64,000 bases of DNA from Dictyophora rubrovolvata (taxonomy: Eukaryota; Basidiomycota; Agaricomycetes; Phallales; Phallaceae): contig CP114119.1 of assembly GCA_029959195.1 (NCBI GenBank), positions 1,860,001 to 1,924,000 of the forward strand, read 5' to 3'. Shown in pieces: positions 61,178-63,309 of this stretch. Below the pieces are notes generated by a model. The model had not been told where the DNA came from. It saw nothing but the letters and a program-made list of their open reading frames with translations, and made no database searches. How positions within the stretch are numbered: position 1 is the stretch's first letter; every line of letters starts with the position of its first letter. Both the position numbers and the translations under genes were made by a program.

Positions 61178-63309
61178 TTATAACGTTGAGCGATGGAGGA
61201 GGGTTGTCGACTTAATAGCATTATCTACAATTCTAGATATGGCAATCAAAGCTTCCTCTTCACACGTTCGGCCGACGACCTGAATACCGATTGGTGTGTC
61301 TTTGAAAGTCTGCGGGTTATCTTGAAGGCGTGCTTAGCGTGATTGATATATAATTTTGTAGAACCAAACTCACAGAACTCGTGGTTTGCTTTGTCTTCGT
61401 CGGACAGGAATTGATGAGGAGGTTTGACCTTATCAAGAGCTGGATCGACTTTGGTAACAGGTATAATCAGCGCAGGATAATCAAGTGCATTCCATATTAG
61501 AGTAAAATCGGCAGTGCTATATATAAATAGGTTCAGCACAAGCATTCATTCCTCGACTGAAGGCCCTTACCGGTTCTTTCCATGAGGTGGTGCAGCGAAG
61601 GGTGCCGCTGGAGAGACTATGGCATCAACAGGTCGTCCTGTCCCGGTCTGAGCTACGGTTGCTTCCCAATGATCCAAATACTCCTGACGATAGTCTCTCT
61701 TTTCTCTATGTAATTGCCATAGTTGAAACGCCGTTTTGGGATCCGGAGACAGCACGAAGGAGGGTGGAGTGACTTGGTCAAGATCCATGGTAAGGATGAG
61801 AGGTTCTTCAGTTAAAGAAGTAACAGCTAAGTAATCCTCCCTTGAACCAGCGTTCCATATAGCTCTTGCGATTGCTATAATTTCCTTATGCTTGTAAGGA
61901 ATCCACTCGACAACTAAACAAAGCAAATGAATCATTGATCTGGTACCAACGGGAGTTAGTGCACCCCAGACCTTTATGTCCAGCTTTGAGAAGGGCGTCG
62001 CGAGTCATTTCAAGGCCTCTTATCACGGGAGGATGAGGAACAATATTTCCATCATTCCATATAATGCCAAAGACAAGTTGACGTCCTCCGTTATGCTCTT
62101 TCAAGGCATATGCAGATTCGTCCCAGTGTTTGTTGACAGCTAACGGGTCTTTCTTCCACGGTTTACTGTCGATAACAGCTCTCATAAATACTTCAACCCC
62201 ATACAGGGAGGTGGATAAGGGACCAAGTACGGATGACAAGGAGTCTTGTCCTTCCATACTGTTGGAGGCCCCTCTGTAAGGCACTCTCCCGTATGAGGGT
62301 CTTAGACCGTATAGACCGTTAAATACAGCGGGGATACGAATTGACCTGAAGTAAATTCGAGACAGATTCTTGATGGATATTGTGTAACGGATCGAACTTA
62401 CCCGCCGACTAAATACGGATGATGTGAGAAATTGTCTGTGTTCGAGACAATTGTGAAATACGCACTATCTGAACCCACTCCCAGAACAGAACCTCGCATC
62501 CCAATCAAGGCACCTTCACCGCCCGACGACCCACCCGGAGTCAACAAACGGTTGTGAGGATTAAGGGTACGGCCAAAGACATTGTTGAATGTTTCGGGCC
62601 ACTGTTAGGGGGGTCATCAAGCAAAGAATTCCGACGCGGTCGGTGGAAACCCTCACCATGAGTGTCTGAGGAACGTTAGTGCGGGTGAAGGGAATGGCCC
62701 CTTGAGCAAGTAGTATTTCGACCAAGGTAGCGTTAGTTTCGGAATATTTACCGATCCAACTAACGTATCCTAATAAAATATTATCAGCTAAGCTTCCCCC
62801 GCGAGTTCGCTGAGCTTACCCATAACAGTTTCAAGGCCCTTCATAGCAAGCTGGTCTTTTAGGGATATTGGCAAACCATGCAGTGGGCCGATCACTCTCC
62901 CGGTTTTCTTAAGGTGCTCATCTAGCTGGGCTGCTCGTTGTAAAGCTTGTTCAACAAATATCTCCGTAAGACAGTTCACCTGAAAGGAGAAAAACGGTCA
63001 CGATGAGCAATTGTCTACTGGTCAAAAGCTTTTTGGACTTACTGCCTGGTGAGCAATAACAGCTCTTTTGTAAAATGCTCTGGTCACATCCACGGCCGAC
63101 CACGCACCGGACGCGAGTTTAGGCAGAAGGACTTCAATATCAGATTCTGTTATATCGACTTCAGCTGGGGAGAGTAAGCCGCATTCTCTGGGGAGATCAA
63201 GGACATTCAACCTATCGGAGGGAGGTGCTGGTATTACCCACGCCTTGGGGATTGCTGCTTGCTGTCTTAGCTTTTTATCTTGAACCAAACCTCTCCATTT
63301 TTCAGTCAT
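61178..63309 (-). CDS. Amidase-signature enzyme, fungal acetamidase (AmdS) type
   Basis: Exons (minus): 63309-63043, 62979-62820, 62769-62657, 62601-62466, 62408-62402, 62345-61972, 61913-61571, 61516-61374 and 61320-61178, 561 residues, normal for the family. Amidases hydrolyse carboxamides with a Lys-cisSer-Ser triad: Lys in PLHGLPISLKDQ, Ser in the TPGGSSGGEGALI loop, and the nucleophile Ser in GSDIGGSIRIPA. The exon at 62402-62408 is only 7 nt and supplies the IGG of that last motif; skipping it would break the frame. Late blocks include FNGLYGLRPSYGRVPY, IVSPAAPFAAPPHG, WNALDYPALIIPV and TPIGIQVVGRTCEEEALIAI. The start is the first ATG in frame. Substrate range cannot be told. Confidence 0.92.

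Follow-up and report, generated by a model that had tools for sequence, protein, structure and literature searches.

In the window, by which we mean the whole 64,000-nucleotide stretch of Dictyophora rubrovolvata DNA analysed here, an amidase gene on the minus strand very probably contains a real coding exon of only seven nucleotides, TCGGCGG (62402..62408). Our favoured explanation, which we hold with considerable confidence, is that this is a genuine and most likely constitutive exon of a FAAH-like gene in an intron-rich genome, spliced by intron definition. When the exon is included, GSDIGGSIRIPA is restored in an amidase of 561 amino acids (aa).

The gene that houses this exon has nine exons and eight GT-AG introns of 50-63 nt, and it runs from an ATG at 63309 to a stop at 61178. 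Exon 1 (63043..63309; 267 nt), which opens with the ATG, was placed by its open reading frame together with spliced alignment, and spliced alignment also gave exon 2 (62820..62979; 160 nt), containing the catalytic Lys130, exon 3 (62657..62769; 113 nt) and exon 7 (61571..61913; 343 nt). Exon 4 (62466..62601; 136 nt) carries GGSSGG with the cis-Ser205, and its 3' end comprises GSD and the first base of the Ile226 codon; exon 6 (61972..62345; 374 nt) starts with the last base of the Gly228 codon, followed by the nucleophile Ser229. The gene ends with exon 8 (61374..61516; 143 nt) and with exon 9, which includes the stop codon (61178..61320; 143 nt). In spliced alignment, both runs with 6kvr agreed on the exon 8 donor, whereas both runs with 8wv2 put it 9 nt downstream. 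The encoded protein has a single Pfam match, Amidase PF01425, at 345.9 bits (cut-off 27), covering positions 1-444 of the 445 in the profile. The solved structures closest to it are 8wv2 (amidase family protein; 310 bits) and 6kvr (fatty acid amide hydrolase; 289 bits), to both of which the similarity is full-length, and FAAH entries such as 1mt5 (185 bits). Besides the significant full-length PF01425 match, the lysine, the cis-serine and the serine nucleophile were found at conserved spacing: Lys130, Ser205 and Ser229 lie 75 and 24 residues apart, as do K91, S166 and S190 of UMG-SP2 (Lys-cisSer-Ser triad). The protein shares this triad, together with the motifs GGSS[GS]G and G[ST]DIGGSIR, with FAAH and amidase-signature enzymes (PF01425; 8wv2, 6kvr, 1mt5). 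Judged by sequence, the gene product is a FAAH-like amidase-signature enzyme, a putative fatty-acid-amide hydrolase-like one. Scanning the window for tRNAs and, at the gathering threshold, against Rfam gave no match.

Intron 4 (62409..62465; 57 nt, phase 1) and intron 5 (62346..62401; 56 nt, phase 2) enclose the minus-strand TCGGCGG (62408-62402) exactly as a sequence-only reading of this DNA had proposed, and both introns bear the consensus ends claimed for them, GTGCGT...TTTAG (62465-62409) and GTAAGT...TTCAG (62401-62346), which look canonical. The exon supplies bases 2 and 3 of Ile226, the whole of Gly227, and bases 1 and 2 of Gly228; read on the minus strand, joining 62466 to 62408-62402 and then to 62345 gives in-frame GSD-I-G-G-S-I-R-I-P-A, within the joined frame ...GVGSD-I-G-G-SIRIPAVFNGLYGL.... 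The exon thus encodes most of I226-G227-G228, the oxyanion-hole stretch. It had been placed three to four residues before the nucleophile, but it in fact touches Ser229, as the base after the junction completes Gly228 and Ser229 comes next. With a length within 30 nt, canonical flanking introns and a reading frame that requires it, the exon has the features of a fungal coding microexon.

To score the exon against other ways of splicing the region, we enumerated all models of 62601-62250 that have at most two introns, each GT/GC-AG and 20-200 nt long (1 + 300 + 17,701 = 18,002 for none, one and two introns), and scored the proteins with a profile built from 78 bacterial amidases. The reading frame stayed open in 3,024 of the 18,002 models, corresponding to 2,987 distinct proteins, among which the microexon model came out on top with 301.9 bits; the next model reached 294.0 bits and the best one with at most one intron 288.4 bits. 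All other open models, among them two-intron variants in the 25 best listed that have GC donors or middle exons of 3-34 nt, scored at least 7.9 bits lower and were rejected. The claim that the family motif needs the exon was borne out as well, the microexon model being the sole one among these 25 to give the motif.

The bacterial set was collected in two steps. With the whole protein as query, no relative was found among prokaryote contigs; a second scan, with an alignment limited to the region preceding the motif, gave 198, and the best 80 of these were taken. Because the collecting pattern lies upstream of the motif, this set is not biased toward an unbroken motif. The motif was free of any insert in 79 of the 80 homologues, and the remaining contig stops before it; 71 of the 79 were recognised by the strict motif, with a constant spacing of 13 residues, and the other eight, which have variant residues at the same spacing, were read by eye. 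For the profile and the alignments, 78 of the 80 fetched open reading frames (those of at least 400 aa) were kept and the two shorter ones excluded.

We also used a home-made spliced aligner that was given no knowledge of the exon. Both flanking introns were recovered in six of six runs, with 6kvr, 8wv2 and a FAAH fragment as queries, each run once with a bonus for consensus sites and once without it; elsewhere in the gene, the 6kvr run without the bonus and both 8wv2 runs proposed additional or displaced introns. The bacterial queries were each reduced to a segment of some 150 residues spanning the motif; aligned to 62780-62150, all 78 again recovered both introns. As a control for chance, we made dinucleotide shuffles of the 120 nt that hold the two introns and the exon. 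Among 200,000 shuffles, AG-N7-GT with both introns of at least 40 nt occurred in 15,588, yet it encoded the exact IGG in only three, and in 23 a triplet that occurs somewhere in the bacterial set. The real alignment score of 234.4 was reached by none of 1,500 shuffles, the best of which scored 223.7; in 69 of these 1,500 the aligner did pick an exon of at most 30 nt, which sets a limit on both the alignment recovery and the exon survey that follows.

The survey covered 18 genes of two enzyme families in the same genome. Ten are aldehyde-dehydrogenase loci (L141-L150), among which fall all of the 20 matches listed from a genome search that scored 11 of 80 candidates; the other eight are amidase loci (L023-L030) and account for 22 matches. 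Each locus was aligned with five of its best-matching proteins (four for L030); these queries were bacterial, with the window's own amidase protein as one of the five for L024 and for L027, and the candidate aldehyde-dehydrogenase queries came from 19 of 30 bacterial loci. The aligner over-splits distant matches, as at L023, where the best alignment had 15 introns, none of them robust, despite an open frame of 584 aa; we therefore counted only robust introns and exons, that is, those on which the queries agreed with at most one exception. Counting the window's exon and gene, 18 of 94 robust internal exons were 30 nt or shorter, and they fell in 10 of the 18 genes, although a few of them could be false, since the aligner over-splits and invents small exons in shuffles. 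Eight of the 94, again with the window's exon, were 15 nt or shorter (7, 11, 11, 11, 11, 12, 14 and 14 nt), in eight of the 18 genes. The length was not a multiple of three in 13 of the 18 small exons, including this one. A 3-nt exon that a single query proposed in L149 did not prove robust and is left out of these counts. The 7-nt exon is the shortest in the sample, yet it lies within a continuum.

Not all of these small exons are independent, as three aldehyde-dehydrogenase paralogs on contig 2 (L145, L146 and L150) have a common robust exon series of 136-11-105-99-72-298 nt and so share an 11-nt exon. Its three versions, TGTTTCACGAA, TGCTTTACGAC and TGCTTCATGAA, differ in sequence but are similar, and an 11-nt exon common to three paralogs is good evidence that such tiny exons are used. 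The matches of the three paralogs lie within about 41 kb (543,786-584,976). Another aldehyde-dehydrogenase gene (L148; contig 3, about 1.04 Mb) has four robust exons of 21-28 nt. As a separate observation, four matches that cover one and the same section of the AMP-binding domain profile lie about 4 kb apart on contig 8 (2,067,592-2,079,468) and have the look of a tandem gene array.

The same survey supplied introns for comparison, 116 in all, made up of robust ones and the remaining introns of the window gene, with introns 4 and 5 excluded. They had a median length of 56 nt (5th-95th percentile, 50-76.5), with 113 GT and three GC donors. Against these 116, intron 4 ranked at the 32nd percentile for its donor and at the 70th for its acceptor, and a branch-like CTCAC motif begins 20 nt before its end; for intron 5 the donor was at the 94th and the acceptor at the 89th percentile. 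No CTNA motif was found between +16 and -7 of intron 5, and the same was true of 36 of the 116. Thus the introns that flank the exon are of typical length and have ordinary splice sites. Two points here nevertheless count against our favoured explanation: the donor of intron 4 reaches only the 32nd percentile, and intron 5 is without a clear CTNA branch motif.

That the exon could serve as an on/off switch had been put forward in the sequence-only reading, and our results did not support this idea. Under a regulated switch, conditions would decide whether the exon is included or intron 4 removed, and the product would be active, frameshifted or 580 aa long; we regard this as very improbable. 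In its favour, intron 4 has a donor below the median, and its retention would be in frame because its length is a multiple of three and it is free of stops. There are also published precedents, which we cite from excerpts of the papers: a 20-nt switch microexon in Trichoderma Xlr2 (PMC11121469), and Cryptococcus neoformans, where 10.6% of genes yield multiple transcripts, through exon skipping, alternative sites or intron retention (PMC3990503). However, stop-free introns of a length divisible by three numbered eight among the 117 with known phase, and with seven others like it we rejected intron 4 as special on this account. The splice sites are ordinary, the intron lengths likewise, and since exons of 15 nt or less occur in eight of the 18 genes, the 7-nt exon needs no special explanation. 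Its length is not a multiple of three, as 13 of the 18 small exons surveyed are not, whereas the length of switch-like microexons usually is, according to the excerpt of PMC11121469, with the 20 nt of Xlr2 itself an exception. Apart from the open frame that intron 4 keeps and the below-median rank of its donor, we saw nothing in the sequence that hints at regulation.

The predicted products of mis-splicing bear on the same proposal. The expectation that skipping changes the frame stands for the main donor of exon 4, from which the skip product stops after 239 codons, in keeping with the prediction that loss of the exon would destroy activity. It does not stand for an alternative donor at 62461, from which the exon is skipped in frame to give 560 aa with GSD-SA-SIRIP; in strength, however, this donor ranks only at the 3rd percentile. 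Retention of intron 5 leads to a stop after 228 codons and that of both introns to a stop after 247, while intron 4 retained alone leaves an open frame of 580 aa with 19 residues inserted ahead of Gly-Gly-Ser. It is very unlikely, in our estimate, that splicing of the exon or of intron 4 is regulated such that an active amidase alternates with a 580-aa protein whose oxyanion hole is disrupted by the 19 residues; if it were, one gene would make a pair of active and dead enzymes, set by intron retention.

The open frame through the 57 nt also raises the possibility that intron 4 is simply coding, which would give GSD-SAYFTIVSNTDNFSHHPYLV-GGSIRIPA with a 19-residue insert and GGSIRIPA kept. We consider this highly improbable, as the insert lowers the Pfam score from 345.9 to 321.8 bits (a loss of 24) and splits the match into two stretches, and the model that keeps intron 4 scored 278.4 bits against the bacterial profile, 23.5 bits less than with the intron removed. 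Moreover, the insert is absent in 79 of the 80 homologues, the last one being cut off, and a donor, a branch-like motif and an acceptor are all present in the 57 nt. Alternatively, the weak donor at 62461 (GTATTT) may open one intron of 116 nt (62461-62346), so that the seven bases are never used and the protein reads GSD-SA-SIRIP. This is the top one-intron model and it is open, but it falls 13.5 bits under the microexon model, its length exceeds the 95th percentile of the 116 introns, and it loses the Ile-Gly-Gly of the oxyanion hole; together with the rank of its donor, these results leave it with next to no likelihood. Finally, we find it scarcely credible that the locus is a decaying pseudogene with an exon that appears by chance, given one open 561-aa reading with three correctly spaced catalytic residues, the full-length Pfam match, and three exact triplets in 200,000 shuffles.

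How a constitutive 7-nt exon may be spliced can be outlined as follows. Two short introns split the codons of Ile226 and Gly228 and leave seven bases between them. Each intron would probably be recognised across itself as a unit, that is, by intron definition, in which case the shortness of the exon would be unimportant. The two introns would be removed one after the other, and the mature mRNA is predicted to encode an unbroken SD-IGG-S active-site loop. According to excerpts of two reports, Cryptococcus and yeast show intron retention, taken to reveal recognition across introns, more often (PMC2397502), and a C. elegans microexon no longer depended on PRP-40 when an intron next to it was unusually short (PMC8378409). 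On the basis of these reports we infer that the 7-nt exon needs no special regulator. The exon itself may have arisen from two introns that came to lie close together inside a conserved motif.

It had been suggested that the same microexon be sought in related amidases, and in the seven other amidase genes that we found in the genome the alignments put no intron at either position, which also weighs against our favoured explanation. Four of them do have introns near the motif, at 6 (L027), 12 (L028), -25 (L029) and -26 nt (L026) from the first base of the nucleophile codon, each backed by five of five queries. This suggests that introns may have been gained or moved repeatedly around the conserved motif.

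Exons of this size have precedents in other fungi, again as described in excerpts of the published reports. In the bglA genes of basidiomycetous yeasts, the shortest exons, set by cDNA comparison, are 5 bp in Sirobasidium magnum and 6 bp in Rhodotorula minuta, which have two and ten exons below 30 bp and introns averaging 81 and 60 bp, respectively (PMC9142197). There, too, an enzyme gene has very short exons; bglA, however, is a glycosidase gene with transcript proof, while the amidase exon is known from sequence alone. Phanerochaete P450 genes contain a 6-bp exon, and microexons occur in nearly a third of the P450 set (PMC1184071). A 1-nt exon with transcript reads is present in Fusarium CYP621A and in at least 20 orthologues, and an 8-nt exon lies in a P450 motif of Phanerochaete CYP5141A1 (PMC12940212). 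These two P450 genes resemble the amidase gene in that a tiny exon inside a highly conserved enzyme motif was found because the motif cannot form otherwise, and they differ in enzyme family and, for CYP621A, in read support. As to Trichoderma Xlr2, reads showed glucose-dependent inclusion of its 20-nt microexon, the omission of which removes an essential domain, and the JGI gene model missed it (PMC11121469); it is likewise a fungal microexon, but its inclusion is glucose-dependent, whereas the amidase exon gave no sign of regulation. Among the matches listed from the literature on microexons in fungi, basidiomycetes, Cryptococcus and fungal amidases, as far as their titles and the openings of their abstracts go, there was no earlier report of this amidase exon.

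As tiny exons recur elsewhere in this genome and have been published for genes of other fungi, the finding looks like routine splicing, and a new mechanism would be opened only if regulated inclusion were shown. Its lesson is one for annotation, as a 7-nt exon bears the oxyanion hole of an enzyme. A gene caller unable to place the exon would report a broken or mis-spliced amidase, and gene models that miss such exons are documented for other fungal genes, according to excerpts of PMC11121469 and PMC12940212. In the two enzyme families surveyed, about one-fifth of the robust internal exons (18 of 94) do not exceed 30 nt, so gene models for this genome should come from spliced alignment in which tiny exons are permitted.
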